Assembly: GCA_947179485.1 (NCBI GenBank)
Contig: OX359245.1
Span: 40,287,067-40,351,066 of the forward strand
DNA: 64,000 nt
Reading direction: 5' to 3'
DNA from: Allacma fusca
Taxonomy: Eukaryota > Arthropoda > Collembola > Symphypleona > Sminthuridae
The position numbers were made by a program, and so were the translations under genes. Shown here piece after piece: positions 1 through 28,547 of this stretch. The notes under the pieces were generated by a model. The model ran no database searches, was not told where the DNA came from, and worked only from the letters and a program-made list of their open reading frames with translations. Each line of letters begins with the position of its first letter. Position 1 is the stretch's first letter.

Positions 1-145
1 CTCAGAAACAGTGATACGACTGAAATCTATGAATGAAAATATTATGTATTAGCAATCGCGTATTCCAAAATTCACCCGCACTTATTTTTCGAAACGTTTC
101 CAGAATGTGACACTCGATTAAAGAACAGGTTCTCACCGATTTCAT
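1..145 (-). CDS. WxxW secreted peptide precursor, copy A (cut by window edge)
   Basis: This is the 5' part of a minus-strand gene. Exon 1 is 137-145 and codes only Met-Lys-Ser, followed by a GTGAG donor at 132-136. Exon 2 starts at base 26 after a TAG acceptor and runs off the window edge; it begins Ile-Ser-Val-Val-Ser, the start of a hydrophobic signal peptide. The visible bases match copies B and C almost exactly, so the missing part should code the same short spacer and a C-terminal WxxW peptide. Exon 1 (137-145), the donor and the acceptor are seen directly; the rest is inferred from the copies. Function is unknown; a secreted, processed peptide is inferred from the complete copies. Confidence 0.75.
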
Positions 146-242
146 GGTTGATTGTCTGGTCTTGTTATATAAACGGATGTTCAATGATTCACAACTTTTA
201 CTTGGTTCTGTGTTCCGTGCGTTAGCTTGGAGTGTGTGTGGC

Positions 243-278
243 AAACTGAATAAGCTTTAGGAAACGCTGCCATTTATA
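243..278 (-). promoter_or_regulatory. Core promoter of peptide copy A
   Basis: A TATAAAT box (272-278, minus strand) lies 31 bases upstream of the A in TTCAGTTTG (+1 at about 247), an arthropod-type initiator. The same pair at the same spacing occurs in copies B and D. The predicted 5' UTR is about 100 bases. Confidence 0.7.
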
Positions 279-2657
279 CAAGCCATTATCTCAAATGTCA
301 TACATCGTTCCTTTTCCCTGGTCACATGAGATGATAAGCTCGTTTTGTTTCTGATAAGTGCCTTGGCTGAACCTGAACAAATCATCGGAATGACATGAAC
401 CAGAATAACCAGATTTCAAGTCGTAATGAGGTGTTCGTGTTTCAGCATTTACTTAATTCTCGTGTCATGTACATAGTAAGCATGAATAAGACGTGCAATA
501 AATAAATATACACCCGTGGTGTTCCGTTGGGAAACCATTTGTTTTCAACAATATTTTTGTTTTTGTGTACAACTGAATACTCCACCCAATCTTAGAGTCG
601 AATTGTCTTTTGGGCGTTCGGAGCATTTCCTTTAAGTTGGCTCTCCCTGACTGTAGCAGCACATCGTTGACGATACACGACCGTGCATTGGCGTTTAGAG
701 AAACAACTACTATTTTCACGGATAACCATTTAATATCCAAAACTATAATTGCTAAAATGCAATAATTGCGTAGCACTACCGACACAATGTATGGCGATGG
801 AGCCATTTTTACCATAGTCAGCAAAATGGACAGAGCCGCTCTCTTATGTCAAGCATAAGGCGGTGCAATTATTTAATTTCTCGAAATCGTAGTGTGTGTT
901 TTCATACCTATGTTTGAATTGTAAATATGGAAACGAGTAATATATATAAAAGATCGTTATTTATTGCAATGTATGGATATGGGCTGGCCTTTCTGTTAAT
1001 TGAAACCCAGAAATCAGCCTTAGTAACGCTTTCTTATGTAATTTATCTCGATGAAACTGGTTTTAATAATTACTCATCTATGATAGCTGCGGTTATTCCT
1101 GGCTTGTGATGTATGAGTGAGGCACATGTGAGTTTAAATGGTAGAGTAGTTATCAGCAAGGATTTTCCGCGGCGGAGATTCGGTTTACATATGTATATGT
1201 AATTTAATGAGGTAAAGCTAGGACACAAATATATGTTGTTAAGCATAATTTAACGATTGAGTTGTCACGCAACGTCACAGATACTCGGAGCTTCTGATTA
1301 ACCAAGTATAGTACATTTATGTAGTACACGTTTACATTTCTCATGACGTCGTGCTTTTCAAAAGCCGTTTAAACCAGCCAAAATACTACTTACTATTCTG
1401 AGACGCCAAACCCGTCTCTTTCTTCACCATGCTTATTTAATTGGTATTTTTCTGCTTACTTGCACATTATATTGTTGTGCATGTCCTTGAAGATCAGCAA
1501 CTGGAAATTTACTGGAGGAACAAAATGCTACCAAATAAATGACCTGCCACTGATTTTTGATCGCATGTTTATATGTGCCGTAGATACACATGGGAGTATG
1601 TTTTACATATAGAGTGGCGAATATTTGAAATCGAATTGCACATACAAACAGTAACAATACCCCTGGTGCATGTGGTTCATAACTAGGAACACAGACTTCC
1701 CTGCTGCTATATATCTGACTATGTATGCAGTTCATTGCATGTTTTTCGATTAGGACCTGCATATATATTTGCCAATGGTTTTTTCGCCATCTTAAGAACT
1801 AAATTTAGTTGGTTTCCAGTTTTTAGAAGAGCCTGTTAGACTAGAATAAATAACTAGCGTTCGACAAAATGCTTCTCATTACTTTCTATTCGCTCTTTAT
1901 AGTTTGAAACGGTGATACTCGCCTTCGTGATGCACTCTCAATAAACTAGAAATCTGCGATCTGTCGAAATGGTAATGTCGCAGGTGTAATTAGTCAGTGT
2001 AATGGAATCTCGGGAGATATTTGTACACGACAATTTCTTCAGCAATCCAAACCACGTTGGTCAACCAGACGCATGTAATCTCAAGTTTTATTCCCAGTTC
2101 AATATAGCTGTTTGACTAATAGTCAAGTTTGGTTTGACGTCGGCATGGTTTTCCTGCAAGTAACTGCATATGGAAGTGTGCTGATTGTCAGCATCTATGC
2201 GCAGTTTATGGATAACAAAGCTAGGCGAGTCTTCGTACATAGAGCAGATGTGGATGGACAATTATTATGCCCTAAACTTATACTAATTTCCTGCAAGTTC
2301 AAAATTATGGCGTTGTGCGGTAAAGTCGTAACGAGTGATTTACTAATTTTGTGGAATATTGGTGAAGATTCCATGCATTTCCAAGTTACTTGGATCGTTT
2401 TTATGTGTACATATGCATGTATATGTCACCACCTGTTAGATTTAAATCCCAAAAATTATGTCTAATATGTACTGTAGATGAGTGAACCAAGATATGTAAG
2501 ATTTTATAAAATTCAGCAACTTTTAATAACACTGATATTGTGTTGGTATAAAAAATATATTGCACATTTACAATGCAGGATTTCCCCGAAGGGTTTCTAA
2601 TTAAGTATACGTTTCAGCAAATGACTTGGACGTGTTTCGGACGACCGAAAGTTTCAA

Positions 2658-3084
2658 CTAACGTCCGAACCTTCCGTATCGCGTCGAGTCGGCACTTGAC
2701 CAAGGACTCCATGCCCGGCTCTCACTATTGTACATAAACAAGAAACGTGATTAGTAAAATGACACAATTATTCTGGCAATCACTCATGATTAGCCGCACA
2801 ATATCATGTAAGGTGTTCTTACCGGTAATTTGTCATTGGACCCTCAGAGAGATACGGCATAGGGCCGTCCATTAAAGGCATTCCGAAAGGTAAAGCGCTC
2901 AAAACTCCCAGCAAGGTCAGGATAGTGATGATGCCCAGAAACAGTGATACGACTGAAATCTATGAATGAAATTATTATGTATTAGCAATCGCGTATTCCA
3001 AAATTCACCCGCACTTATTTTTTTAAACGTTTCCAGAATGAGAACCAGACACTCGATTAAAGAACAGGTTCTCACCGATTTCAT
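2658..3084 (-). CDS. WxxW secreted peptide precursor, copy B (complete, 70 aa)
   Basis: Exons: 3076-3084 (MKS), 2823-2959 and 2658-2724, with GTGAG and GTAAG donors and TAG acceptors. The spliced frame is 71 codons including TAG. Residues 4-25 form a hydrophobic signal peptide ending ...GVLSA, and 26-48 are an acidic, Pro/Met-rich spacer. Residues 49-52 are R-E-S-R, a minimal furin-type RxxR site. Residues 53-70, AWSPWSSADSTRYGRFGR, are the likely mature peptide. Gly69-Arg70 suggests trimming of the Arg and amidation, giving a 16-residue GRF-amide. The last intron falls inside the codon for Arg49, so exon 3 codes the cleavage site and peptide. The products predicted for copies C and D are nearly the same. 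A hormone, neuropeptide or defence role is possible; the sequence does not say which. Confidence 0.87.
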
Positions 3085-3181
3085 GGTTGATTGTCTGGTC
3101 TTGTTATATAAACGGGTGTTCAATGATTCACAACTTTTACTTGGTTCTGTGTTCCGTGCGTTAGCTTGGAGTGTGTGTGGC

Positions 3182-3217
3182 AAACTGAATAAGCTTTAGG
3201 AAACGCTGCCATTTATA
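3182..3217 (-). promoter_or_regulatory. Core promoter of peptide copy B
   Basis: TATAAAT at 3211-3217 and TTCAGTTTG with +1 at about 3186 are 31 bases apart on the minus strand. The predicted 5' UTR is about 102 bases. The spacing is the same as in copies A and D. Confidence 0.72.
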
Positions 3218-5349
3218 CAAGCTATTATCTCAAATGTCATACAGCGTTCCTTTTCCCTGGTCACATGAGGTGATAAGCTCGTTTTGTTTCTGATAAGTGC
3301 TCTGGCTGAACCTGAACAAATCATCGGAATTACATGAACCAGAATAACCAGATTTCAAGTCGTAATGACGTGTTCGTGTTTCAGCATTTACTTAATTCGC
3401 GTGTCATGTACATAGTAAGCATGAATAAGACGTGCAATAAATAAATATACACCCGTGGTGTTCCGTTGGGAAACCATTTGTTTTCAACAATATTTTTGTT
3501 TTTGTGTATAACTGAATACTGCACCCAATCTTAGCTTCGAATTGTCTTTTGGGCATTCGGAGCATTTCCTTTAAGTTGGCTCTCCCTGACTGTAGCAGCA
3601 CATGGTTGACGATACACGACCGTGCATTGGCGTTTAGAGAAACAACTACTATTTTCACGGATAACCATTTAATATCCAAAACTATAATTGCTAAAATGCA
3701 ATAATTGCGTAGCACTACCGACACAATGTATGGCGATGGAGCCATTTTTACCATAGTCAGCAAAATGGACAGAGCCGCTCTCTGATGTCAAGCATAAGGC
3801 GGTGCAATTATTTAATTTCTCGAAATCGTAGTGTGTGTTTTCATACCTATGTTTTAATTGTAATTATGGAAACGAGTAATATATATAACATATCGTTATT
3901 TATTGCAATGTATGGATATGGGCTGGCCTTTCTGTTAATCGAAACCCAGAAATCAGCCTTAGTAACGCTTTCTTATGTAATTTATCTCGATGAAACTGGT
4001 TTTAATAATTACTCATCTATGATAGCTGCGGTTATTCCTGGCTTGTGATGTATGAGTGAGGCACATGTGAGTTTAAATGGTAGAGTAGTTATCAGCAAGG
4101 ATTTTCCGCGGCGGAGATTCGGTTTACATATGTATATGTAATTTAATGAGGTAAAGCTAGGACACAAATGTATGTTGTTAAGCATAATTTAACGATTGAG
4201 TTGTCACGCAACGTCACAGATACTCGGAGCTTCTGATTAACCAAGTATAGTACATTTATGTAGTACACGTTTACATTTCTCGTGACGTCGTGCTTTTCAA
4301 AAGCCGTTTAAACCAGTGAAAATACTGCTTACTATTCTGAGACGCCAAACCCGTCTCTTTCTTAGCCATGACTATTTAATTGGTATTTTTCTGCTTACTT
4401 GCACATTATATTGTTGTGCATGTCCTTGAAGATCAGCAACTGGAAATTTACTGGAGGAACAAAATGCTACCAAATAAATGACCTGCCACTGATTTTTGAT
4501 CGCATGTCTACATGTGCCGTAGATACACATGGGAGTATGTTTTACATATAGAGTGGCGAATATTTGAAATCGAATTGCACATACAAACAGTAACAATACC
4601 CCTGGTGCATGTGGTTCATAACTAGGAACACAGAGTTCCCTGCTGCTATGAATCTGACTATGTATGCAGTTCATTGCATGTTTTTTGATAAGGACCTGCA
4701 TATATATTTGCCAATGGTCTTTTCCGTCTTTTTAAGAACTAAATTTTTTGGTTTCCATTTTTTAGAAGTGCGCGTTGGACTAGAATAAATAACTAGCGTT
4801 CGACAAAATGCTTCCTATTACTTTCTTTTCGCTCTTTATAGTTTGAAACGGTGATACTCGCCTTCGTGATACACTCTAAATAAACTAAAAATCTGCGAAC
4901 TGTCCACATGGTAATGTCGCAGGTGTAATTAGTCAGTGTAATGGAATCTCGGGAGATATTTGTACACGACAATTTCTTCAGCAATCCAAACCACGTTGGT
5001 GAACCAGACGCATGTAATCTCAAGTTTTATTCCCAGTTCAATATAGCTGTTTGACTAATAGTCAAGTTTGGTTTGACGTTGGCATGGTTTTCCTGCAAGT
5101 AACTGCTTATGTAAGTGTGCTGATTGTCAGCATCAATGCGCATTTTTTGGATAACAAAGCTAGGCTTGTCATCGTACATAGAGCAGATGTGGATGGACAA
5201 TTATTATGCCCTAAACTTATACTAATTTCCTGCAAATTAAAAATTATGGCGTTGTGCTGTAAAGTCGTAACGAGTGATTTACTAATTTTGTGGAATATTG
5301 GTGAAGATTCCATGCATTTCCAAGTTACTTGGATCGTTTTTATGTGTAC

Positions 5350-5859
5350 TGTAAAGGATTTATTCTCCTTTACTCCTCGTCATAGCAACGAGAGTTTGAG
5401 TCTTGAAGTTTATTGTAAATCATTTCTATCAATCAATTGAATAATAATGTTTCATTGAAACGATTCGTCCTGGCCAATGAAATGTACGTGTTGGTCTGAG
5501 AATGGAGTCAGCGAGAGAATCTCGAGGCAGATTCTTTCTGACCTCGGAGGTTCTCTGACGTACGATAGAGTCGCTGTCTACTGAGATTCTCAGTAGCCGT
5601 TTTCTTCAAAGGTCGCTAATAATAATTATTGCTTTCAGGCCTGGTTAGCTATAGCGTTACGCTTCAACCTCTCCTCGTCTTCACCACTTTCAGATCTGCG
5701 GTGCGCTTAGCTATTATTGTATTCTACCCTAGCGTTAGAACTGTTATTGTTGAATATCGTTCTCATTATTATTTGTGTGCAAATAAATACAGTTGTGGTT
5801 CAGCTGGAGTCAGCGTATTTGTAGGGAATAGTATTGAGCCATTAAAGTTATTCCTTAAA
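5350..5859. mobile_element. 510-bp insertion with GTAC target duplication (solo-LTR-like)
   Basis: Comparison with unit 1 (2405-2415) shows a clean insertion. The host site GTAC is present once in unit 1 and on both sides here (5346-5349 and 5860-5863). The insert starts TGTAAAGG and ends CCTTAAA, and contains AATAAA near 5783. Length, 4-bp duplication and lack of coding suggest a solo LTR, but the end is not the usual CA, so the class is uncertain. Confidence 0.65.
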
Positions 5860-6110
5860 GTACATATGCATGTATATGTCACCACCTGTTAGATTTAAAT
5901 CCCAAAAATTATGTCTAATATGTACTGTAGATGAGTGAACCAAGATATGTAAGATTTTATAAAATTCAGCAACTTTTAATAACACTGATATTGTGTTGGT
6001 ATAAAAAATATATTGCACATTTACAATGCAGGATTTCCCCGAAGGGTTTCTAATTAAGTATACGTTTCAGCAAATGACTTGGACGTGTTTCGGACGACCG
6101 AAAGTTTCAA

Positions 6111-6531
6111 CTAACGTCCGAACCTTCCGTATCGCGTCGAGTCGGCACTTGACCAAGGACTCCATGCCCGGCTCTCACTATTGAACATAAACAAGAAACG
6201 TGATTAGTAAAATGACACAATTATTCTGGCAATCACTCATGATTAGCCGCACAATATCATGTAAGGTGTTCTTACCGGTAATTTGTCATTGGACCCTCAG
6301 AGAGATACGGCATAGGCCCGTCCATTAAAGGCATTCCGAAAGGTAAAGCGCTCAAAACTCCCAGCAAGGTCAGGATAGTGATGAGGCTCAGAAACAGTGA
6401 TACGACTGAAATCTATGAATGAAAATATTATGTATTAGCAATCGCGTATTCCAAAATTCACCCGCACTTATTTTTCGAAACGTTTCCAGAATGTGACACT
6501 CGATTAAAGAACAGGTTCTCACCGATTTCAT
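6111..6531 (-). CDS. WxxW secreted peptide precursor, copy C (complete, 70 aa)
   Basis: Exons: 6523-6531 (MKS), 6276-6412 and 6111-6177. Splice sites and lengths equal those of copy B. Exon 3 has no base change from copy B that I can see, so the predicted RESR site and mature peptide ending RYGRFGR are the same. Differences lie in the signal peptide, where LFLSLIT replaces LFLGIIT, plus a silent change in exon 2. The coding frame is intact, but the promoter has lost the TATA consensus (see 6629-6664), so expression may be reduced. Function unknown. Confidence 0.86.
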
Positions 6532-7836
6532 GGTTGATTGTCTGGTCTTGTTATATAAACGGATGTTCAATGATTCACAACTTTTACTTGGTTTTGCGTT
6601 CCGTGCGTTAGCTTGGAGTGTGTGTGGCAAGCTGAATAAGCTTTAGGAAACGCTGCCATTTACACAAGCCATTATCTCAAATGTCATACAGCGTTCCTTT
6701 TCCCTGGTCACATGAGGTGATAAGCTCGTTTTGTTTCTGATAAGTGCTCTGGCTGAACCTGAACAAATCATCGGAATTACAAGAACCAGAATAACCAGAT
6801 TTCAAGTCGTAATGACGTGTTCGTGTTTCAGCATTTACTTAATTCTCGTGTCATGTGCATAGTAAGCATGAATAAGACGTGCAATAAATAAATATACACC
6901 CGTGGTGTTCCGTTGGGAAACCATTTGTTTTCAACAATATTTTTGTTTTTGTGTATAACTGAATGCTCCACCCAATCTTAGCTTCGAATTGTCTTTTGGG
7001 CATTCGGAGCATTTCCTTAAAGTTGGCTCTCCCTGACTGTAGCAGCACATGGTTGACGATACACGACCGTGCATTGGCGTTTAGAGAAACAACTACTATT
7101 TTCACGGATAACCATTTAATATCCAAAACTATAATTGCTAAAATGCAATAATTGCGTAGCACTACCGACACAATGTATGGCGATGGAGCCATTTTTACCA
7201 TAGTCAGCAAAATGGACAGAGCCGCTCTCTGATGTCAAGCATAAGGCGGTGCAATTATTTAATTTCTCGAAATCGTAGTGTGTGTTTTCATACCTATGTT
7301 TTAATTGTAATTATGGAAACGAGTAATATATATAACATATCGTTATTTATTGCAATGTATGGATATGGGCTGGCCTTTCTGTTAATCGAACCCCAGAAAT
7401 CAGCCTTAGTAACGCTTTCTTATGTAATTTATCTCGATGAAACTGGGTTTAATAATTACTCATCTATGATAGCTGCGGTTATTCCTGGCTTGTGATGTAT
7501 GAGTGAGGCACATGTGAGTTTAAATGGTAGAGTAGTTATCAGCAAGGATTTTCCGCGGCGGAGATTCGGTTTACATATGTATATGTAATTTAATGAGGTA
7601 AAGCTAGGACACAAATGTATGTTGTTAAGCATAATTTAACGATTGAGTTGTCACGCAACGTCACAGATACTCGGAGCTTCTGATTAACCAAGTATAGTAC
7701 ATTTATGTAGTACACGTTTACATTTCTCGTGACGTCGTGCTTTTCAAAAGCCGTTTAAACCAGTGAAAATACTGCATACTATTCTGAGACGCCAAACCCG
7801 TCTCTTCCTTCACCATGCTTATTTAATTGGTATTTT
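6385..7836. repeat. Tandem unit 3, truncated
   Basis: This unit is colinear with unit 1 to about 7836 and then stops abruptly: after the shared TGGTATTTT the sequence is unrelated. It carries peptide gene C. Confidence 0.88.
6629..6664 (-). promoter_or_regulatory. Altered core promoter of peptide copy C
   Basis: At the place where copies A, B and D have TATAAAT, this copy reads TGTAAAT (6658-6664). The initiator reads TTCAGCTTG instead of TTCAGTTTG. Spacing is still 31. This looks like early promoter decay in an otherwise intact gene. Confidence 0.55.
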
Positions 7837-9129: not shown

Positions 9130-9640
9130 GTAATTCAGTTAGGTTGTATTGGTTGTTCTTATATTGAGTTTTTTGATACCAATGATATTTATTACAGGTT
9201 TGGGATTCCATGTTCATATACTTATGTGCAGATATGGCTCAAGGGTTGTGGTCAATTGTTGTGCATACTGTATGAATGTGCCATACATAAACTTAAATCG
9301 TAGCATAGTAGCTATCAGTAAGAATTTTATCCTGCGGAAGATTCAGTTAACATACATACATGTAATTACATCTGTTGATGCATGTACACGATGATCGTGG
9401 TACCATAATTACAAGCTTGTGATGTCACGCAAGATAGATAAATGTCTGGAGTATTATGGTTAACCAAATAAACTAGAGTTGTTTGGTATAATATTTTGTG
9501 CTTCATGATACCATTTAAAAGCCGTTTAAACCAGCCACCGAGACTATTTATTTCGTTTAGATGTTGAAGTTTGTACAGCAACGTAGACCATACCTTCTGT
9601 GTTTGTAGGAATGCCAAATTGTAACTCCCCCTGTGGTCAG
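9130..9640. repeat. Remnant of an older copy of the tandem unit
   Basis: Blocks around 9300-9480 align with 1145-1320 of unit 1: CAGTAAGAATTTT against CAGCAAGGATTTT, then GTGATGTCACGCAA against GAGTTGTCACGCAA, then GGTTAACCAA against GATTAACCAA. Divergence is far greater than among units 1-3, so this unit is older. Confidence 0.6.
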
Positions 9641-9657
9641 CAAAATAAAGTTATTAT

Positions 9658-11268: not shown

Positions 11269-12575
11269 GTTAGGAAGGCATGCTTTGACCTAACGGTTTG
11301 TTCATTCTCGGGAACAAAAATAAAATTATGTCAAAATACACGAATGCGAACAATTAGGAAACGACAGCCTGATGTAAATCATTTTTTGACATTTAATACA
11401 ATCTGCAAGTCAATCTTCTAAAGTTTAGGTTTGGCCAATGCACGCAGTTCTTGGCAGAAAAGGACGGAATGACACCGGATTGTACTTTTATTAACGAATC
11501 TTACTTCACCGCTTTCTTTGGAACCATATTTGCTAGTTTCAAAATTTTTATCCGAGTTCTATGGGCATCGTTTACCAACCGGCGGTCCACAAATTGTTTC
11601 CATTTCTTTCTTATCGGTATTTATGGTTTACAGGGATGACAAATGTTTGCGTACTTGGTTGTGATAAAACTGGAACTCTCGTCTGAAGCTTACATAGATA
11701 ACACAACAAGTGTAATTAGTTAGTGCAAATAAATGAGTTTTGGACTTCTTAAATGTGTACTTGAGGGATTGATATGAAATTCTAACAACGTTTTTCGCCA
11801 CAGCGTTCGCGATTTCAAGTTTGTCTTCGTTTTGTAATATTGCGGTATGATTATTTGACAAGTTTAGCTTGACTGCTGCGTAGCTTCAGATATTCAAGTA
11901 CATACGGTATTGTATCAATTGTCATCACTTTCATTTTCAAAGATTTTATGGGCTCCCTATTTATTTCCTTTCGCACGATTCTAGTTCAGGTGAGAAGCAT
12001 TACCGCTTAAGTGTGTACAGATGGGTTATACTGATTGTCAAAATTTTTAGCTCAAATATTTGAACATATCTAAAAATAACACATTCAAGCAAAATTCATC
12101 AGTTTCGAAAGAACTTCAGGTGGATCTTGTGCAGAAGTATTATTTCGTAGACTTATTATTAGTACAGATATTGCCACAACATTCAAAAATATGCCTAAAT
12201 GATCATATTTGATGTGTGTCTTCGGTTATTTAGATTGTGCTCAAAAGGAAGTAAATTTTAAAGTTTCATTGTAGCATTTATGAATTTTCAACAGTTTATA
12301 GATTCCCTAAACCTAAACGTCATCACCTACTTCATGGCTATTTCACTGTATTCATAACAATATTCTCTCCAATATTCAAAATAAATGAACTCAGAAAGTA
12401 CGTAAATAGTCACTTCAAAATTAGCTGTAAAACGTTTATTGACAATGTTATAATGTTGATCCAAAAATATACTTAATATACTTAACTTATAAAATACACG
12501 ACAGTGATAAAAATATTTTACATGGTATAAAAATTAAGGAGTTTCCGCGACGTTAATGAATCCAGCATATTTGAA
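11269..12575. repeat. Remnant body of the old tandem unit upstream of copy D
   Basis: Weak colinearity with unit 1 persists: GTGTAATTAGTTAGTG at about 11710 against GTGTAATTAGTCAGTG at 1985, and ATACTGATTGTCA at 12030 against GTGCTGATTGTCA. No ORF conserved in units 1-3 survives here, so the body is probably non-coding. Confidence 0.5.
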
Positions 12576-13014
12576 TTAACGTCCAAATCTTCCGTACCTT
12601 GGAGAGCCTGCACTTGTCCAAGCACTCCACGCCCTGCCTTCCCTGTTAAATATTAAAAAGAAAATTGATTAGTTTAATGACACAGTTAAACAGGCAAGCA
12701 CTCAATTTTAGCAGCACAATTCACTATCAGCTTTCTTACCTGTAATTTGTCATTGGACCCTCGGGCAGATACTGCATATGGCCGTCGAGTGAAGGCATTC
12801 CAAAAGGAAAAGCACTCAAACTCCCTAGTAAGGTCAGGATAGAACTGAGGCCAAGGGACAGTGACACGACTGAAATCTATGAATTGAATTAAGATATACA
12901 TATTAGTAAAAACACATTGGAATGAAGCAATAATGCAACTACTTTTCAAGACACTGTTTCTGAAGGAAGTATCGAACTGAATAAATTTAGGAAAAATATT
13001 CTCACCAATTTCAT
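12576..13014 (-). CDS. WxxW secreted peptide precursor, copy D (complete, 70 aa)
   Basis: Exons: 13006-13014 (MKL), 12740-12876 and 12576-12642, each the same length as in copy B. Residues 4-25 are a hydrophobic signal peptide and 26-48 a spacer starting FPFGMP. Residues 49-52 are R-E-G-R, and residues 53-70 are AWSAWTSAGSPRYGRFGR. Surrounding introns and body have diverged heavily from units 1-3. The exon lengths, RxxR site, both Trp, and RYGRFGR are nevertheless kept, with many changes between. That pattern argues for selection on the protein. Predicted product: a Trp-rich peptide ending GRF-amide. Function unknown. Confidence 0.88.
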
Positions 13015-13116
13015 GGTTCTGATGGTTTTTTCTCCTTGAGCGAGCAAAATTCTGAGAAGATTTGCAACTTAGACTGCTGTAGCTGCTTCTGTGTATTAAC
13101 CTGAAGTGTTTAGAGC

Positions 13117-13152
13117 AAACTGAATGTCCTGTATGAAACAGCCGCATTTATA
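13117..13152 (-). promoter_or_regulatory. Core promoter of peptide copy D
   Basis: TATAAAT at 13146-13152 and the initiator TTCAGTTTG with +1 at about 13121 are 31 bases apart, as in copies A and B despite overall divergence. The predicted 5' UTR is 107 bases. Confidence 0.72.
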
Positions 13153-13453
13153 TGTACAGACCATTATCACAAATGTCATTACTGCGTTCCTTTGGTATAA
13201 TTACTGATAATGTGATAAGCTCTATTTGCTTCCGATAGTACCACCGGCTGCCAGCTGTTCCTAAACAAAGTATCAGAATAGAACGAACCGGAATAACCCG
13301 AGTTTTTATATTGTAATAGAGACTGGGAATTTCAACATTTTATTACGTCACTTGTCACGTTTGTATATACACGTCAGTTTCTAGAATGTGACTAATAATA
13401 CATGTTTACTGGTTTTTAAGTAAACCATTTTTGTTCAACATTTGTTTTTAGTA

Positions 13454-18539: not shown

Positions 18540-18866
18540 CATGGGTCGGATTTTTGTAAATCTCCCTGGAAGATGATTTCTGAATTTCCCTGCTTAATCT
18601 TATGTCCCTGAAACGATTTTAAAAACCCTGCTGAAAAAAGGTCAACGATTTTCAAAATCCCTGATTGCAAAAGTAATTTCCCTGCAAGACGTCAAATCCC
18701 TGCCAAATTAGGTCAACCAATTTAAAAATCCCTCCTTGCATAACAAATTTCCCTGAAGCACAATTAAAAATTTAAAAATCCCGACCAAAAGAAGGTTACC
18801 GAATTTAAAAAATCATGTTTTGCCTGGGAAGAGTCTTCCCGTCTTCTCACAAAAATTCGACCCCTG
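18540..18866. mobile_element. hAT-like MITE filled with AAATCCCTG
   Basis: The ends CATGGGTCGGATTTTTGT and ACAAAAATTCGACCCCTG are inverted. Flanks AAGTTTGG and TAGTTTGA agree at 6 of 8 bases. The interior repeats AATCCCTG or ATTTCCCTG about ten times. Confidence 0.6.
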
Positions 18867-19692
18867 TAGTTTGATATTTCATTGCATGTAATATGAGTAA
18901 TTGCTGTGTTTATATAAACAAGAGAATTTACTGTCGCTTCATATTACCCATTTCTTATAGATATATAGCATTAATTGAGCAATCAGCATGTTAGTTGTTA
19001 TTTGAGTAACAATATTTCAGAAATTGTATTCCTATAGACTTATTTTACCCATATTTACTATTTACAACCCATGTAACACCAATAATGCAAATTGCTAGCT
19101 CGTGATTCCGCCTTATTATACACATTTTGATATTCAAGGTCCTGGAGTGAGAAAATTCTGGATTATGCAATACAAGTCTAGCATTTGAGCTCGCATATAT
19201 AACAAAATCAGTCGTCACTCAATAATTATATCAGGTTTATCTTTTTTCCGTTCTCGTGTTCAATGTCAAATAACTTTTCACTCTCTCGTCATCCCGAAAT
19301 GACGTAACGCATTAATATGTTTGCACGTCCATTCAGCATACAATTACAACTCAATACCCACATAATGATTATGCATGCACTCTATACTCCAACACTAACG
19401 CAAGTCACTATACCCTAACGCTTTGATCTGCACTTTTTAACCTGCATGATGTTCAATTCAAGGATTTGTGGTCTATAGATACACTCTCTATAGCAACATG
19501 AGACTCACATCCATGCATTAACTAAACAAATGCGAAATACTGTCTACAAAACCTCACTTGAATATTTTGACTACTAACACCGGATCATCGTTACTGCATG
19601 CAAGCGCCCACAGAGAACATCAGCAAGATTTTGTACAGTATTTCATCAACTTAAAAGTTATTGCAAAAATTTTAGCAACAAAAATCCTTACA
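18867..19692. other. Intergenic region before the reductase pair
   Basis: AT-rich. I see no further coding exon or convincing TATA-initiator pair. It must hold the promoter of the 19693 gene. Confidence 0.4.
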
Positions 19693-20556
19693 ATGGCAAC
19701 TCCGAACAAACTCAAAATTGTGGTGTTTTACGGATCCACTCGAACCGGCCGCTTAGTTGAGCGTGTGGGCGCTTTCGTGAAAAAAGTTCTAGTTGACAAA
19801 GGGCTGGAACCGATCATATTTGGTAAACAATAAACTCTTGTATTTTGTACAAATATAATTTCCATAGCAGACAAACAAACTTAAACTATTATAATGCAAC
19901 TCCTACTGTATTTGTATATACCTCAAAATAGACCCAGAAGAAATGAATTTCGAAATGCTAAAATGTGCCCTGCACTTTTACCCTAATCGGGATGATGCCC
20001 CACAATGGTTAAAAGATGCGGATGCAGTAATCCGTGACGCCGATGGTTTCCTTGTGGTCTCCACGGAATACAATTCTTCCATTCCTCCAGCATTGAGCAA
20101 CATGTTGGATCATTTCCCCCCAGCGTCCTTCCGACATAGGCCAGTTGGGATTTTAACCTACGCCAAAGGTAACATTTATTATTTACTGTCCTGGGCGCAT
20201 GCGCAATTGGTGCGCAAAATTCCGCAACGCCAGTTTAAATATCTGCAAAATTACGGGTAAGTGTTATTCTCTTGCGCTTAATAATAAAATTATTTTTTGC
20301 AGGTTATTGGGGTGGAATTCGCGCCGGCGTAGTACTCAAGCCCTTCTTAAGTGACTTCGGTTTGGTAACGATTCCCGCCAACTGTCCTATTCCAACAGCA
20401 GGGGAAGTTTTTGACGCAGCCGGGAACTGCAAGGAAGAGCGCATTGCAAAACGGGTAGAAAGACTTGTAAATGAACTCAGATGGTACAGCGCAGCCCTTA
20501 AAAGTTACCGGAGCATTGAGACATTACCTCCACCCCCGATGAATGCTCTTGCGTAG
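19693..20556 (+). CDS. NADPH-dependent FMN reductase-like flavoprotein, paralogue 1
   Basis: Exons 19693-19822, 19932-20168 and 20303-20556 join in frame to 206 residues, the usual size of the FMN_red/flavodoxin-like family. The start ATG (ACAATGG context) is followed by a beta strand and the phosphate-binding loop YGSTRTGR (about residues 14-21). The second signature, TEYNSSIPPALSNMLDHF, lies in exon 2 and corresponds to the family's PEYNxSxPxxLKNxxD flavin-contact region. The family transfers electrons from NAD(P)H to FMN, quinones or azo compounds in the cytosol; the substrate here is unknown. The neighbouring 22912-24016 gene is a tandem duplicate with the same intron positions and phases (both phase 1). 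AATAAA occurs near 20766. Confidence 0.9.
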
Positions 20557-20914
20557 AGTGGTATATTACTAGTATATATTCTGTAATGTTTAATTACTAG
20601 TTGCGGAAATAATTATTGTAGTGTATTACGTACCACGCCCAAAGTTCCAAGTGTACTATGACACTGTGAGTCTTTCGATGCTGCTATTTACCTTTCACTA
20701 AAACTAATGAACGAAGATGTGCCAATAATTATTTTCCCCTACAATTAAAAACCCCCGTTTATTTTAATAAATACTGTGACACATAAATTTGATTATGCCT
20801 GTTACAGTATCTATTATATGAAGGAATTTTCCAAAAGCAATTCAAATGTCGTTCCATCTAGTAATTACAAGGGAGCAATTTCTTTCTGGAACTTTTTCGT
20901 TAAGCCAGTGAGTA
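20557..20914. other. 3' flank of reductase 1
   Basis: Likely 3' UTR with a polyadenylation signal (AATAAA near 20766), then plain AT-rich sequence up to the next element. Confidence 0.4.
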
Positions 20915-21410
20915 GTGATGCCAATGGTCTGGTCTGATCCAGATTTTATGAAACTGGTCTGGTCCAAAGCGCAGACCAGACCATTGGTCTGGTCCAGTTT
21001 TTCGGACCAGACCATTGGTCTGGTCCAGTTTTTCGGACCAGACCAGTGGTCTGATCCAGTCATTCGGACCAGACCAGACCAAAGACCATGGTCCGGACCA
21101 TGGTCCAGAAAACCATTCAGAGCAATTGAATAATCACATTTTATCCAGTCAAATTTTTTTTTATCCTCAGAAATGACATTTTTAATTTGTTCCACAGGAT
21201 TTCGTTAACTCATAAATTTTTATTTTGCGTACTTTTGGGACCATGGTCCTGTGGTCTGGTCTGGTCTGGTCCTGAAGCTGGACCAATTGTATCTGGTCTG
21301 GTCCAAGTGTTAGACCAGACCGGACCAGACCATACAAGTCTAGGACCAGACCGGACCAGACCAATAACGGACCATTATTAATGGTCCGGACCAGACCATT
21401 GGCATCCCTA
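20915..21410. mobile_element. hAT-like element filled with GGTCTGGTCC
   Basis: The ends TAGTGATGCCAATGGTC and GACCATTGGCATCCCTA are inverted. The 8-bp duplication CCAGTGAG is perfect (20907-20914 and 21411-21418). TAGnG ends plus 8-bp duplications are typical of the hAT superfamily. The interior is nearly all GGTCTGGTCC and its complement GGACCAGACC, apart from a short AT-rich centre. ORFs here are an effect of the repeat. Confidence 0.88.
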
Positions 21411-21604
21411 CCAGTGAGTGCAAATATCATACAAAATTACAAAGTCGGAATACTAACAAATGAATGCTACATATTCCTGGAGCTTTCAAACCGAACGCCA
21501 ATAGGGATGAATTAAAAAAAATAATTGTACGTATTACTTGTGTCGCACGTGGATGATGTAGCACCAAAACCAAGATTATACATGAATTCAATACTAGTAA
21601 TGCC

Positions 21605-21989
21605 CAGGGTTGGCAAAAAACCAGGCCAAGCCAGTGGCAAGAAATGGTAACAACCGGTTTTTATTGGACAGTGGACTTATTTGGATAGTATTAATTATGA
21701 CCATTTTATACCAACCTATACAACAGGTCCGGGCCGGTTAGAACCGGATTTTAACCAATAATAACTAGGCCATTCCTGACCACTTGGCAACCCTGTGTTC
21801 ATGCATACGCAATATTAGCCAAGCCGGTGGTACGTTTTGGTTAAAACCGGTTTTTATTGGATAGTGGATTTATTTGGATAATATTAATTACGACCATTTT
21901 ATACCAACCCAAGCAATTGGACCAAGCCGGTAAGAACCGGATTTTAACCAACAACGGCCAGGCCATTTCTTGCCACTTGCCAACCCTGG
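21605..21989. mobile_element. hAT-like MITE with CAGGGTTGGCAA ends
   Basis: Inverted ends CAGGGTTGGCAA and TTGCCAACCCTG are flanked by a perfect 8-bp duplication GTAATGCC (21597-21604 and 21990-21997). The inside holds two similar halves with AACCGGTTTTTATTGGA and its inverse. Non-coding. Confidence 0.9.
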
Positions 21990-21997
21990 TAATGCCT

Positions 21998-22911
21998 GCT
22001 TACACAACGTACCAGTCCCAATAAAGATGACGTATGTACATATGCACAAGGTACATGAAACATGAGAGCTAATGAGCCGTAATGGGTATAATAAAGTAAA
22101 TAATTATTGAAGCATGCAGTCCTTCATAAGAGACGTTTCAAAATAAAAATATAAATGGTTAATTTCCCTATTACATGTACAAACCAATTATTACATATGT
22201 ATACATGTGGATATTTACAATTAGACACATGTCATTATATATGAGTCCGTCATTTTGGTTTGCTCAATAAAATAATAGCACTTTATCCGTGAAGGAGCCA
22301 ACTGGTCTAGATCCTATTTTTGCACTAAAATCAAAGGGATCTTCATGGATCACATATAATTTGTGTAAGTTTTTACTGTTGGGACAGAGCAAATTCATTA
22401 CTCATGGAAATGTTTCTTCTTGTAAGAGCAAAGGAGTCAAATTTTGGAGCTCTAATTCTAAGGGGTACTTGTACAACGAGAGTACCCCAAGTCTAAATAC
22501 TTATATAAGCATTTATTCATTTATTATTTCCCATAGGACAGTAACTATTACAAAGGCAAGGAAGTTCCGTCTGCAACATAAACCTTACCTTAGTATTTCA
22601 GGTGAATTGTCAATATTTTAATTCAATTAAGGTTATTTGCATACATCAAAGCAATTCCTGAACGAACCAATTGACCACGGACAATGAGTAAGCTGCCATT
22701 TCGTCTTTCCCATTAAGCAAATATCAATTTAAGACAAGAGGTAATTGCTTTGCGAAATATCATTTCGTTCCCATTTATTTTCAAGAAAGCCCCGGCCAGT
22801 TTTAGTTATCTCCGAAACCTCTTCCTTTCATAGGAAGTAAAGGGTCGTCAGCGTTTGCTCCAAAAATTATTGTCGAATATTTTCCCTTCTAGAATTTTTA
22901 AATTTGTCAGA
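21998..22911. other. Intergenic between the element and reductase 2
   Basis: No gene is supported. The 110-codon plus ORF at 22289-22621 has no splice context or recognisable domain. Confidence 0.4.
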
Positions 22912-24016
22912 ATGAAACTCGTCCTTTTCTACGGGTCAGTACGTCCTGGCAGATTAGTAGACAGGGTTGGGTGTTTTGTCAAGGATCTGGTTGAAGCGAA
23001 TGGGTTTGAAGTCACCCTTTTGGGTAAATGAAAGGAAGAATAATTTTTATACAAAATTCAAACTTTAAATAAGGACACTGAAGAAGTTTTTTTTTTTTTT
23101 TAAATTTGTCTGTCTATAGATCCTGGGGAGATGCCATTTGAAATCCTCAAATGCCCCTTACATTTCTATCCGGACATTCTGGAAGCACCGGATTGGTTAG
23201 TAGAAGCAAATGAGAAGATTCGTGACGCTGAATGTTTTCTGGTGGTGTCAGCTGAGTACAATGCAACTATTCCACCAGCCCTGAGCAATATGTTGGATCA
23301 TTTTAATATGACGTCTTATCGACACAAGCCCCTTGGTCTTGTGACGTATTCCATGGGTAATGGCAGACAAAAATATTTTTAATTATTGCTATTGTACAAT
23401 TTTTTCTTTTACTTAAAATTCGTTGAAATCGCCCAATGAATACCATTAAATTTTGTCATTATGTACATATGCAAAGAATTTATAACACCGTCGGTGATGA
23501 GGCAAAATTGGCTATAGCATTTTTGATTGAAAGAAAAATATAAAAATTTATGTATCTACATATATGTAGATACATACCCAACTCTGAGGCAAACATATTT
23601 TAGACCATTTTGTCTTTAATCGAAACTGCATCTAATCTATTTCCCATCCACTTCCCTCCTGCAACCTCGGCATTTTATTATCATGTAGAATGAAACTATT
23701 ATATACAACATAACCTAAAAAATTACAATTTTTTGTATTAACAAATTTTGATTGATTCACAGGTCATTTTGGGGGAATTCGAGCAGCCAGTACTATCCGT
23801 CAGTTAGGGATTGAGCTGGGGATGGTTCCCATCCCAGCCAATGCTCATATCCCTATGGCTGAGACAACATTTGATGAAACTGGGATTTGCTTGGATGAGC
23901 GAGTGTCAAGTAGGATCCTCCGGTTAGTGGAGGAGCTTCGATGGTACACTACAGCTCTGAGTAGCTACAAAGCCATTGAAGCCCCTCCCAATGCTCCACA
24001 ATATTCATTAGAATGA
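22912..24016 (+). CDS. NADPH-dependent FMN reductase-like flavoprotein, paralogue 2
   Basis: Exons 22912-23023, 23120-23356 and 23763-24016 give 200 residues. The N-terminus is six residues shorter than paralogue 1. The phosphate loop is YGSVRPGR (residues 7-14), and exon 2 carries AEYNATIPPALSNMLDHF. Exons 2 and 3 have the same lengths as in paralogue 1 (237 and 254), with phase-1 introns at identical sites, so the pair arose by tandem duplication. Predicted role: flavin-dependent NAD(P)H oxidoreductase, cytosolic, substrate unknown. AATAAA is near 24258. Intron 2 (23357-23762) contains a perfect 28-base palindrome. Confidence 0.9.
23549..23576. repeat. Perfect 28-base palindrome in intron 2 of reductase 2
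   Basis: The half-site TATGTATCTACATA is followed by its exact reverse complement. It lies in an AT-rich intron and may be a small repeat end or a chance product of alternating TA. Confidence 0.6.
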
Positions 24017-24520
24017 ATTTTATTTCCATGCTAAAATATATAGCTTTTCGGAACGATTCCCAATCACCCGAAAATTCAGCACAAAACCGCTTGCAGCCAC
24101 AGTTCCATTGTAGCAGGATTTAGTAGTGCAGATAAAAGCATTTGTTTTATGTAGTAATTATTATTCTCTTGTCTAATTGTAAGTAAATAGTAAATTATTG
24201 TGAAAAAGTATCCATTCTACACGAGCAACTCCTGTAACTTTCGATTCTTCACTAATGAATAAAACAGCATTGGGAAATAAACGACGATTGTGTAATTATT
24301 TGTCAGTGTGAATCAAGCAATAATAATTATTACAATCACTTATAGTTTATTCAAATACAAATGCTTTACTTCAAGTCAATAATATCAGTTTAAAATATTC
24401 TGAGAGTCACTATAAGCTTACAAAAGTTACGCTATGTGGTACTTATAACTATGCAAAGATACCCATCATGATGTACGTATATGGAAATAAATTAAATACG
24501 AAAGTCAGGGGTCAGTCAGA

Positions 24521-25090
24521 TCAGAACAGTTTCCCGTACCTTACGTGGGAAGCACTTTCCCAAGGGATCCAAATTCGACCCTCTCTAAAAAAAACAATAA
24601 TTAATTTTAATAATTTAAAACTGGATTACGTGATAACATGATAGATTATAATAAATAATTAATTTTAGCTACAGTTCTCAATTATAAATAGTGTGAGACT
24701 AGCTCATTAGCTGTAATTTTTAAATAATTACGGGTCAGTCAGAGATAATGAAAGCATTGTGCATAATTAATTACCTACAGTCCACTGGAAACGACGGCCC
24801 GGAGAAGTACTGTCCTGCCGGGAAAGGATAGGACACGACGGAAGTCATTCCATAAGCTACCAATACCATGATAAATGCCAAAGCAGACTAGAAGAAATAA
24901 AAAAAAATGTATTTTATTAAATTAATCTTTATCAACCGTTGACTGTTTAGAAATGAAAGTTCCAGTGTACAACGGTACAGTGAAATTTACATACGTATGG
25001 TATATTTACTTACTATGCACGTATATGGTAAGCACTCACATACTGTATGTGTGTAGTAAACAAAAAATCTCAACTTACCCCAAACTTCAT
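24521..25090 (-). CDS. WxxW secreted peptide precursor, copy E (divergent, 62 aa)
   Basis: Exons: 25079-25090 (MKFG), 24775-24887 and 24521-24584, with GTAAG and GTAAT donors and TAG acceptors. Residues 5-23 are a signal peptide and 24-41 a spacer beginning YPFPAG, recalling LPFGMP of copy B. Residues 42-45 are R-E-G-R with the Arg42 codon split by the phase-2 intron. Residues 46-62, IWIPWESASHVRYGKLF, are the peptide. It shares the WxxW core, the S-A, and the RYG of the tandem copies, but has KLF at the end and no Gly for amidation. Identity to copies A-D is limited to these features and the gene structure, so the family is old. Function unknown. Confidence 0.82.
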
Positions 25091-25291
25091 GTTGCTCAAG
25101 TTTTTTAAGTTGTTTGCTGAAGAATTAAAATCTCACAATATGAATTATTAGAGTACAAGTTTTTTTGTATTGAAGACTTAGAGTTTGTTAAAAGCTCTGT
25201 GAAGGTTTGAAGGGTGAAGGTGACTAATTGTCATTTCCATCTGGAATTTCGACCAAAGACTCAGTGTAACGTTTTTTTTGGAGCAAAGAGT

Positions 25292-25298
25292 ATTTATA
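25292..25298 (-). promoter_or_regulatory. TATA box of peptide copy E
   Basis: TATAAAT on the minus strand, 202 bases upstream of the ATG. No clear TCAGT initiator is seen at the expected place. Confidence 0.5.
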
Positions 25299-26322
25299 CT
25301 ACAAGTGTTGTGGAGACTCCGTGAGGCTATTGTGAAATATGGTAATTAGGCTGCGTTTTCATTGAGCAATAATGAATGACATGCCAGGGGATGATAACGT
25401 CATTAGTCATCATGCTCACCGCTTTGCTACTGATTACGCAGGAACCCACAAATCCAGGTACAATTGCGCGACAAATCGGATTAAACGTTCGAGAAGAAAT
25501 GACTCGTTTACATAGAACCACTCTTTTCTTGTTTTGTTGTTCGAAAGGATTCTGTCTGAGCCAGTGTTGGACCATTATTTCAGCTAGAGTTGATGCATAC
25601 GTATCTATATATTCCCTTTTAAATATAATATTATACATACATGATTATAGAAGATGTTATATGTCCAGAGGCTCGAAAACCCTAGCTCTAATAATTCTAT
25701 ACTTACTTATACAAACGAACTATATTACGGCTGATATTACTGCCTAAATACTTCTGCAAGGACTTACGAACATTTGAGGACAATTACGAGCGTGCTGTAT
25801 ACTTAACCATAAGTACAATTGGTTATATTCCATATGCTTGTTTCCTTAAAACGTTAGGAATGGATATACACGTATGTAGTTGGTTTTATATCATGTATCT
25901 AAAATCATTTCAGTTTTAGAACTAATGTTACCAAATCTAACTATGTAACTATAGGGGCTACCAAAGGGAAATCGATATGGGCAGTTGAATCGAGGAAGTA
26001 ACAACAAGCAAGGGCTGCTGACATTCATTCAAACCATCAACCAGCTGATAATTAAGTTTTGGGGTAATGACTTTTAAAGCCTTATTGCTTTGACTTTAAC
26101 CCAAACAAATCCTTATGCAGTTTTAAGTACAGGTTTTATACATAATTATGGAATTACCTCTGGAAAGTTCAGCAGTTGAAATTGCAGTTTTATTGTATAA
26201 ATGGATAGAGTTTATTCAGAAATTTCTGGAGATGCTTCATATCATGAGCATACAACTGTAATATATAGGTCCAAAAAGAATACAAGTCTCAGAAATAAGT
26301 TTTATTGGAAAGAATAAGTTCT
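25299..26322. other. Intergenic, no gene seen
   Basis: Overlapping ORFs near 25327-25747 on opposite strands have no domain, signal peptide or splice sites I can defend. Confidence 0.4.
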
Positions 26323-26741
26323 TCATGCTCTCTTCAACCCAGTCACAGCCGATGAATGAGTCCAAGCGTTCCAAGCCCGTTTCCCCCTTAAATTAAAAAA
26401 TAATAATTTAGAAAAACAATCCTTTAAATTCAAACAGTTACTCAAATTATTATGTCTTTAATAATACGACCTTCAGCTATTATCAAACAAAAATTCTGTA
26501 CCTGCTAAGAACAGCCTCAGAAGGACTGTCATTTTTACCCTCTGACCTTTGGACGAGAACTGCTCCTTGCACAAAAAATATGGCCAAGGAGAGGAGGAAG
26601 AAAGTCGCAAAGAAATTCTGTAATAGAAATAATTTTAATTAATCCTAGAGCTTGTAACAAATCCACGCTTTATAGAAAAATAAAGGGAATTAATACCGAC
26701 AGGAAATAAATTCCTGAAGAGAAACTTACGTAAAGCTTCAT
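26323..26741 (-). CDS. WxxW secreted peptide precursor, copy F (divergent, 63 aa)
   Basis: Exons: 26730-26741 (MKLY), 26502-26617 and 26323-26386. Residues 5-23 are a strongly hydrophobic signal peptide and 24-42 a charged spacer. Residues 43-46 are R-G-K-R, a good furin/prohormone-convertase site; the Arg43 codon is split by the phase-2 intron as in all members. Residues 47-63, AWNAWTHSSAVTGLKRA, are the peptide. It keeps A-W-x-x-W and a following Ser-rich part but has lost RYGxxF and any amidation signal. Exons 1 and 3 are the same length as in copy E (12 and 64 bases). Function unknown. Confidence 0.8.
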
Positions 26742-26849
26742 ATTTGATTGCAAAGAATGATATTGCAAAAGAGAAGAGAATAACCACAGCCCGTATTGAT
26801 CCTCGAACTTCAGGAAGTATATGCAGGCCCTGTAGTAGTAGGTTCCGTT

Positions 26850-26856
26850 ATTTATA
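26850..26856 (-). promoter_or_regulatory. TATA box of peptide copy F
   Basis: TATAAAT on the minus strand, 109 bases upstream of the ATG, similar to the layout of copies A-D. Confidence 0.5.
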
Positions 26857-28206
26857 CTCAAATTTCAGGTAAGAAAAGGGTCCAAGATTTTATCTGACAG
26901 GTTCAAGTTGGCTATTGCTGTATGTATGAGATACAGGGGAACCTTTTCCGCTCGTTGGAGATGAGGTCCTCCGGTGAAGGACGCTGAGGTTTGGTAATTA
27001 TTTATGATGCTATGCTTAGATACTCGTGCTCAAGATGCTATATACATAAATAATTACGTTACATACATAATATGTACACTTGAGAAACGTTTAGGTGAAT
27101 TCTGGTTCAGGAGCCCTTAGTATATAGTTTATATTGTTCATTGTGTTTTCCAGGAATTCGGTGATGCAAACGTGATTCTTACCGCCTTGAGCCGGTAAAA
27201 TCTGTACTTTGGGACGAAAACAAAATGCTAGAGATTTGCATTGCTTCTTTATTCTACGTATATGTACATACATACGCTACGAGCTCCTAACAATCAAACA
27301 TATAAATTTATAACATTTAAACTGCCTAAAACTGGAATGTTTTAAAAATGTACATTGGACGTTTACAATTTTGGAAGGTTGCTTCACCTTTTCTTACACA
27401 AATGCTTACAACGTGTTCGCGTGATTTTTTTTGAATGACACACGTGTAGTGTTTGGGTTATGTGAGTTGTTTACATTTTTTGATTCTTTTGTTGGTCCAT
27501 ATGTTTTCAGTAGCAATCAGTTCGAGCCACTTGACTGTCCCACAATCAGTAATTGCTAGCAAAAAGGGGTTTGGGAATCAAAGAGCCTCAAAAGCGACAC
27601 ATGAGTAAACAAACAGATTTATCTGGGTTTCGAAACGTTTGGTGAGTAAACAAATGGATAAGAAATGACCTAATCCTTAATTACCAATTCTTAAGAAGAT
27701 TCAGTAAGTTCTTTAGATATGGGTGAAAATAAGAATGTTTATTTTTAAATATTAAAACGAAACCCCATTAACGCTCTAACTATCAACATCAGGGAATGAT
27801 TAAAGAGAGCTAATTACCAGTCCTCGTTGTCAGAGCTTATCAACGCTTTGGAAATTTGATTTTGAGTCAAGTCAAATCCAAGTCCAGCAATGTTTTAGCT
27901 CATTTTCGATTATTTTATGGGAGCATTATTTGTCTTAGAGAACTTACGCAATCCGTATCAAAATAAATGACATTGTTTTCAAACCTTATTTTACCATATG
28001 GATACATGCATACTTACATACATATGTAAGTTATGCAATATCACAGAGAATGAGGAATCATAAATCATAAATAGCAACGCATATACTTCTCCAACATTCC
28101 AGAATAAAACCATTGAAATCTCCAGAATTCCCTTTTTTGACATTTTGAGCTACTATTACCAGCAATTTTGATAACTCCTGTCGTTTATTGTTTGTCCTTC
28201 AGCAGC
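26857..28206. other. Intergenic, no gene seen
   Basis: AT-rich. A CATAAATA box at about 28066-28073 lies the right distance upstream of copy G to act as a weak TATA element. The ORF at 27091-27273 is not supported. Confidence 0.4.
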
Positions 28207-28547
28207 ATGTACCAGGTAAATTTAATTATTTATTTAATTACTGGAAATTATTTTATTTAAAATAATATCTTATAAATTTTATTTAGAATTACATCGGGGC
28301 ATTTTGGGCATTTCTGCTACTTTTCGCAGTAGCGACTGCTATTCCATTATACTTTGCTGTTGATGATCCGCAGCGACTATTTTCTCGGTAATATTTAATG
28401 GGTAAAAAGAATTTCTTTTGTAATATTTTCAAAGAGTATGATACAGGATCAGGTGCTGTTGGATGTGTCATTAAGAAATAAATATTTTGTTGTAGGGAGG
28501 GAAGTCTTTGGACACCGTGGTCCCATGCTGCCAAGATATTTTACTAG
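28207..28547 (+). CDS. WxxW secreted peptide precursor, copy G (divergent, 53 aa, plus strand)
   Basis: Exons: 28207-28215 (MYQ), 28287-28387 and 28496-28547, with GTAAA and GTAAT donors and TAG acceptors. Residues 4-21 are a hydrophobic signal peptide and 22-36 an acidic spacer. Residues 37-40 are R-E-G-S, so the RxxR site has lost its second Arg. Residues 41-53 are LWTPWSHAAKIFY. The phase-2 intron again splits the first Arg codon. It is the only member on the plus strand. The start REG, the WTPW core and the intron phases link it to the family; the short C-terminus lacks RYG and amidation. Processing, if any, would need a different enzyme. Function unknown. Confidence 0.76.

Follow-up and report, generated by a model that had tools for sequence, protein, structure and literature searches.

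The DNA analysed here, a stretch of 64,000 nucleotides from the springtail Allacma fusca (contig OX359245.1, positions 40,287,067 to 40,351,066; hereafter the window, which is C1:40287067-40351066 in genome coordinates, C1 and C10 being scaffolds), carries members of a family of small genes for predicted secreted peptides with a W-x-x-W core. An earlier note, made from the letters of the window alone, had proposed such a family, and we find it to be real and larger than that note saw, based on intact spliced frames, purifying selection that is strongest in the last exon, core promoters common to part of the family and approximately 30 loci in the genome. We interpret the genes as encoding prepropeptides that would deliver one short C-terminal peptide by furin-type processing, and we give this reading a probability of about 0.72, a figure that refers to the mechanism and not to the role of the peptide. 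Rebuilding the genes of the window by splicing yielded the following models.

Gene A, 1..145, minus strand: partial, cut by the window edge; exon 1 is at 137-145, and exon 2 is represented by its first 26 nt (1-26); the complete copy lies at C1:40286791-40287211.
Gene B, 2658..3084, minus strand: exons 3076-3084, 2823-2959 and 2658-2724; 70-residue precursor with the exon-3 peptide RESR-AWSPWSSADSTRYGRFGR.
Gene C, 6111..6531, minus strand: exons 6523-6531, 6276-6412 and 6111-6177; exon-3 peptide identical to that of gene B.
Gene D, 12576..13014, minus strand: exons 13006-13014, 12740-12876 and 12576-12642; REGR-AWSAWTSAGSPRYGRFGR.
Gene E, 24521..25090, minus strand: exons 25079-25090, 24775-24887 and 24521-24584; REGR-IWIPWESASHVRYGKLF, without an amidation signal.
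Gene F, 26323..26741, minus strand: exons 26730-26741, 26502-26617 and 26323-26386; RGKR-AWNAWTHSSAVTGLKRA, the tail that has diverged furthest.
Gene G, 28207..28547, plus strand: exons 28207-28215, 28287-28387 and 28496-28547; REGS-LWTPWSHAAKIFY, without R-x-x-R.

All six complete genes (B to G) have GT-AG introns of 71-191 nt and zero internal stops, and their rebuilt coordinates coincide with those reported before. The first coding exon measures 9 or 12 nt, exon 2 (101-137 nt) carries a hydrophobic segment, and exon 3 (52-67 nt) starts with the third nucleotide of an Arg codon that intron 2 divides, so that the described layout of a tiny first coding exon, a leader exon and a third exon starting inside an Arg is how each of the six is spliced. 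The cores read AWSPW in B and C, AWSAW in D, IWIPW in E, AWNAW in F and LWTPW in G. Of the seven genes originally counted, six are complete and A is the cut end of the seventh; as a measure of the family, however, seven is an undercount.

A whole-protein search of the genome revealed that the array containing A, B and C continues across the window edge, and that a second array lies on the opposite strand. In addition, the genome was scanned with a pattern combining the splice acceptor, the split codon, E-x-R/S and W-x-x-W, which matched 39 times vs. 2 for the backward control. When the surrounding DNA was read, 28 of these 39 were assigned to the family and 11 were not: one of them, L019, was dropped for its weak chain (RESRCWISWTRT), and L021, L047, L048, L049, L050, L051, L052, L054, L055 and L056 for having no chain. 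Gene F and L065, with other R-x-x-R sequences, are two further loci, which brings the total to 30 on two scaffolds (11 in array 1, 7 in array 2 and 12 further genes). This total is a lower bound, because the surroundings of the arrays were left unread and the pattern demands E-x-R/S. The loci beyond those already listed are as follows.

Array 1, C1:40263329-40293597: 11 copies, including A, B and C, with a unit of about 2.9 kb.
Array 2, C1:40150199-40173653: 7 copies, on the strand opposite to array 1.
L029, C1:40180684: family locus.
L030, C1:40195418: family locus.
L031, C1:40199608: family locus.
L020, C1:40.119 Mb: family locus.
L065, C1:39.92 Mb: family locus.
L018, C1:18.53 Mb: family locus.
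L046, C1:44.71 Mb (44713383-44716410): family locus, interrupted.
L053, C10:23.72 Mb: family locus.

Array 1 lies to the right of array 2, separated from its end by a gap of about 90 kb. The units are 97.9-99.7% identical in array 1 (9 units compared) and 98.7-99.9% in array 2 (7 units). The proposal that A to D form one tandem array holds for A to C, which belong to the 11-copy array; D is instead a diverged neighbour and not a regular repeat, resembling the B/C unit over only about 735 bases (12570-13304), promoter included. Within the array, between genes B and C, an insertion of some 510 bases occupies 5350-5858 and is missing from the neighbouring unit; it is the reason for the local spacing of 3447 bases, which is longer than usual.

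To judge how readily such structures arise by chance, we compared the window with random sequences. A search for acceptor, W-x-x-W and early stop alone returned 12 rows for the window, with two genes represented twice, vs. an average of 3.05 (range 0-7) for 20 order-1 Markov sequences. When both strands were searched for the full three-exon chain, it turned up at exactly 6 places in the window, all of them genes B to G, and in 0 of 200 order-3 Markov sequences of window length, or in 1 when other positions in exon 3 were allowed for the motif; a shuffle test at an offset used by the family likewise gave 0 in 30, the 200-sequence chain test being the fuller of the two. Because the chain template was composed after the genes had been seen, chain models were also counted without the W-x-x-W requirement. 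The real window holds 26 of these, several of which differ only in the acceptor chosen for one gene; W..W is correctly placed in 6, and every other residue pair occurs at most 2 times. Relaxing W-x-x-W to any aromatic pair added zero genes in the window. In the genome, the chain is open in 29 of the 30 loci, L046 being the exception.

Constraint on the precursor is strongest in the short C-terminal peptide encoded by the last exon, and between clades the spacer diverges much faster. Between genes C and D, 23.5 of 50.7 synonymous sites and 19.5 of 159.3 nonsynonymous sites have changed, corresponding to a nonsynonymous rate (dN) of 0.134, a synonymous rate (dS) of 0.723 and a ratio of 0.18 (bootstrap 0.08-0.40, with 0 of 999 replicates at or above 1). 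Divided by part, dN/dS is 0.26 in the leader, 0.22 in the spacer and 0.07 in the core and tail (codons 53-70). At the DNA level B and D are 82% identical in exon 2, vs. 58% in intron 1 and 65% (5') and 52% (3') in the flanks; the 75% of exon 3 barely exceeds the 73% of intron 2. Six representatives were compared (array 1, array 2, D, L029, L030 and L031); at the protein level their exon-2 products are 23-40% identical in 13 of the 15 pairs, the exceptions being array 1 vs. D (76%) and L030 vs. L031 (72%), and the last 22 residues, encoded by exon 3, are 77-100% identical. In exon 3, 14 of the 15 pairs show 8-16 synonymous differences per 13-15 sites vs. 4-7 per about 49 nonsynonymous sites, and the closest pair shows 2 synonymous and 0 nonsynonymous differences. 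It is the small number of nonsynonymous differences in exon 3, set against the low exon-2 identity, that identifies the last exon as the most constrained.

Among the 14 distinct exon-3 sequences, most begin with R-E-[GS]-R, followed by x-W-x-x-W and then by Ser/Ala-rich residues, and Pro or Ala precedes the second Trp in all 14. Nine end in a tail with Gly-Arg-Phe, L030 and L031 have Gly-Arg-Val, E has Gly-Lys-Leu, and F and G have none of these. F and G are the weakest members, scoring 16.2 and 16.3 bits, respectively, against a profile built without them; in pairwise comparison F reaches D with an E-value of 0.016-0.023, and G reaches D with 0.023-0.043 and E with 3e-5 to 4e-4.

These features suggest a sequence of processing steps. 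After signal peptidase had first removed the leader (exon 2 of every open chain encodes a hydrophobic segment, though the scans required one), a furin-like convertase would cut behind R-x-x-R, a site that intron 2 interrupts. All loci but G, 29 of the 30, have R-x-x-R ahead of the core, a count to be read with the fact that the genome pattern itself required part of R-x-x-R, so loci without it could be discovered only in the window. The released peptide would start x-W-x-x-W and comprise 13-20 residues (23 in L053, 34 in L065). Gly-Arg-stop, which predicts a C-terminal amide, closes 22 of the 30 loci (array 1, array 2, D, L029, L030 and L031); in the AWSPW/AWSAW clade a carboxypeptidase followed by PHM/PAL would convert ...RYGRFGR into ...RYGRF-amide, or into an RV-amide in two copies. 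The predicted candidate amidated products are AWSPWSSADSTRYGRF-amide, AWSPWSSADSVRYGRF-amide and AWSAWTSAGSPRYGRF-amide. Two arrays of near-identical genes, together with diverged copies in which almost the same peptide is kept, suggest selection on the amount of one molecule and on differing sites or times of its expression.

The core itself invites a further prediction. C-mannosylation targets the first Trp of W-x-x-W (PMC8433626; here and below, sources with PMC numbers are cited in excerpt), and the enzyme requires a small residue beside this Trp and no Cys at -2 (PMC12990085). In 11 of the 14 distinct sequences (all except E, F and L046) the first Trp is followed by Ala, Gly, Ser or Thr, and none of the 14 has Cys at -2; the first Trp is hence a plausible candidate site, with these 11 sequences good candidates by the excerpted rule of PMC12990085. 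The thrombospondin type 1 repeat, with its WSPWS motif, and the substrates of DPY19 resemble the family in having W-x-x-W, with a small amino acid usually following the first Trp and position -2 free of Cys, but the exon-3 peptides of the family lack cysteines and none of the five proteins scanned matched the repeat domain.

Upstream, 6 of 12 promoters (B, D, array 2, L029, L030 and L020) have a TATA box with CAGTT about 30 bases further on, the latter roughly 80-110 bases before the start codon, in a TATA-initiator layout. In gene D, TATAAA stands at -138 and TCAGTT at -109 from the ATG; in E, F and L018 the TATA box is followed by a weaker CAGTT match. The corresponding element of gene B is given here with hand-converted coordinates.

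Core promoter of gene B, 3183..3217, minus strand: TATAAA at -133 and TCAGTT at -104 from the ATG.

Counting of other upstream motifs in the 12 promoters, in which B and D are related, gave 25 GATA (19.0 expected, 97.5% limit 27), 32 TATA (19.1, limit 34) and 5 CTTATCA (1.2, limit 4). The CRE (cyclic AMP response element)-like TGACGT occurs 6 times vs. 2.2 expected (97.5% limit 5), though the B and D promoters are related. Canonical kappa-B is not enriched, with 1 vs. 1.3 expected in the 12 promoters, which is weak evidence on Toll induction, and loose kappa-B gives 6 vs. 1.9, equal to its 97.5% limit of 6. No regulator is drawn from these counts.

Several observations weigh against the prepropeptide reading or against its reach. 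L046 has its exon 2 broken by an insertion, and G carries REGS in place of R-x-x-R. The Gly-Arg-Phe tail is absent from 5 of the 14 distinct sequences, L020 ends in Gly-stop, and E, F, G, L018, L046, L053 and L065, making up 7 of the 14, have no amidation signal. Since its dN/dS is 0.22, the spacer is not free between C and D, is constrained as well and may not be wholly disposable. The B vs. C ratio of 0.64 rests on 3 differences between recent copies and is uninformative. With regard to the promoters, each core element of gene C is altered by one base, and the 500 bases upstream of G, L053 and L065 contain no TATA box. As a side observation, the L046 insertion measures about 400 bases and by eye has a short direct repeat on its flanks, and DNA resembling it seems to be present in the window near 21625-21988.

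The family was described as apparently undescribed, and within the searches made this still stands: the Pfam, PDB, protein and literature searches returned no named relative, and a match to an already named peptide family, which the earlier note had set as grounds for abandoning its claim, was looked for and not found. Pfam gave nothing above cut-off for the five proteins scanned (D, P0001, E, F and G); sub-cut-off matches of F and G to ETRAMP, DUF4006 and DUF6338 were taken as chance, as was the best result of a PDB search with D alone, an unrelated sigma factor (E 0.053). Among 5.8 billion proteins, in a search where matching needs shared 5-residue words, the sole relative found is P0001, an unnamed A. 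fusca protein of 70 residues (NCBI/UniRef) without name, domain or function. It is the same spliced product: it departs from B and from C by one residue each and exactly matches the precursor encoded by seven copies of array 1. Searching the protein database with a profile built from E, F and G only gave 4 candidates and no relative. Two scans of viral contigs returned 25 and 18 stretches with the pattern, none of which was confirmed as a relative, and a viral source was dropped. Of six peptide strings searched in the literature, any occurrence was confined to one unrelated food-science paper, and none of the titles and abstracts found describes a W-x-x-W peptide family.

With respect to role, the readings overlap with the processed-peptide mechanism. 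An abundant haemolymph or exocrine effector is the one we lean towards, at a little under even odds, with an immune function, itself less probable, included in it as a part. Because of the multi-gene arrays a secreted effector made in bulk is favoured over a hormone; the amide signal and the strong conservation keep a hormone in play.

As a neuropeptide or peptide hormone, amidated AWSPW...RYGRF would act on a receptor, and the copies would provide tissue-specific or boosted output of one ligand. We regard this as possible at roughly one chance in three or slightly less. R-x-x-R together with Gly-Arg-stop is the classical layout of an amidated peptide: arthropod amidated neuropeptides (RFamide types, allatostatin-B/MIP, AKH) have, like the family, a leader, a basic cleavage site, a Gly-Arg amidation signal and an aromatic peptide. 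The last exon is the most constrained and the CRE-like count is high, which fit as well. However, the lack of an amide signal in half of the distinct sequences and the multi-gene arrays would be unusual for a neuropeptide. Allatostatin-B/MIP is W-x6-W-amide, with its Trp residues six apart and an end in W-amide, whereas none of the 14 distinct peptides ends in W and their core is W-x-x-W; NPF ends in R-x-R-F-amide, whereas the amidated forms of the family would end in Y-G-R-F or Y-G-R-V. The separation from these two families, drawn earlier, is borne out by both Trp spacing and C-terminal ends, and to our knowledge the W-x-x-W core with the RYGRF tail matches no arthropod amidated neuropeptide. 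Further, no such peptide appears among the family names in the excerpted basal-hexapod neuropeptide survey, its sequence supplement not being covered (Derst et al. 2016, PMC4770511), and the about 30 loci contrast with the few duplications of single-copy peptide genes in basal hexapods reported there, where NPF usually has 2 and ITP up to 5.

An immune effector family like the bomanins of Drosophila, that is, a clustered and lineage-restricted set of short peptides secreted in large amounts upon infection, is by analogy a comparably tentative proposal. The near-identical gene arrays and the small predicted peptide are in keeping with it. Bomanins are taxonomically restricted, comprise 12 genes, and their short forms act by amount more than by sequence (PMC10059942), so that both families are lineage-restricted, multi-gene sets of short secreted peptides for which amount would matter; this is a likeness of layout only, with no sequence compared. 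A springtail gene survey suspects undiscovered antimicrobial families (PMC10051947). The five families it names in excerpt (diapausin, Alo, defensin, cecropin and diptericin), with average lengths of 40-97.5 residues and a cysteine framework or a glycine-rich or helical peptide, do not fit: the 14 distinct exon-3 peptides contain 0 Cys and have predicted lengths of 13-34, and the five proteins scanned gave no Pfam match above cut-off. Moreover, canonical kappa-B is not enriched, the looser form only reaching its limit, and the peptide is kept between copies rather than diversified.

Cuticle protein genes commonly have a tiny first coding exon ahead of the leader, and the family might similarly provide a structural or surface component (cuticle, secretion or egg coat), with the R-x-x-R and Gly-Arg ends incidental. 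The high copy number would suit bulk demand, and the constraint on the spacer between C and D is in line with this. We nevertheless find it improbable, given that between clades the spacer falls to 23-40% identity and the last 22 residues hold at 77-100%, and that no Pfam domain was found above cut-off in the proteins scanned. Pseudogene relics or chance exon chains, to which the broken L046 and the weak similarity of F and G to D might point, are highly improbable in view of the absence of the chain from 200 random sequences, the C-D ratio of 0.18, the open chain in 29 of 30 loci, the profile scores of F and G and the much better match of G to E.

Returning to the prepropeptide reading, its most far-reaching form, considered unlikely though worth stating, is that about 30 genes serve essentially one W-x-x-W peptide, probably C-mannosylated on the first Trp and amidated in the main clade, and that this constitutes a new class of arthropod signalling or effector molecule. 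If so, it would join the hypertrehalosaemic hormone of the stick insect, the arthropod case of C-mannosylation known from PMC12990085 as excerpted, as an arthropod peptide with a mannosylated Trp. It would also be a case where gene copies, and not repeats within one precursor, multiply a peptide. A peptide family of an early-branching hexapod lineage is here defined from genome sequence alone; its predicted product is precise and open to synthesis and to a mass-spectrometry search, and its members, a naturally occurring set of short W-x-x-W peptides, lend themselves to the question of C-mannosylation in arthropod secreted peptides.

The window holds other features besides. Between D and E, 19522-24013 on the plus strand apparently contains two adjacent NADPH-dependent flavin mononucleotide (FMN) reductase genes; an FMN_red match lies in 23104-23379, the tested frame at 20239-20553 gave none, and the first reductase gene was judged by eye. 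On the minus strand, frames in 31054-36003 resemble the exons of a gene for aldehyde oxidase / xanthine dehydrogenase; a single frame of 339 residues matched, and the others were judged by eye. A tandem repeat with a period near 39 bases and about 12 copies, followed by a 36-base repeat, occupies 55535-56064. Finally, a young long terminal repeat retrotransposon spans 36932-47339; its 554-nt direct repeats (36932-37485 and 46786-47339) are 99.8% identical, and its interior has a second open frame without a Pfam match beside one with reverse transcriptase, RNase H and integrase domains.

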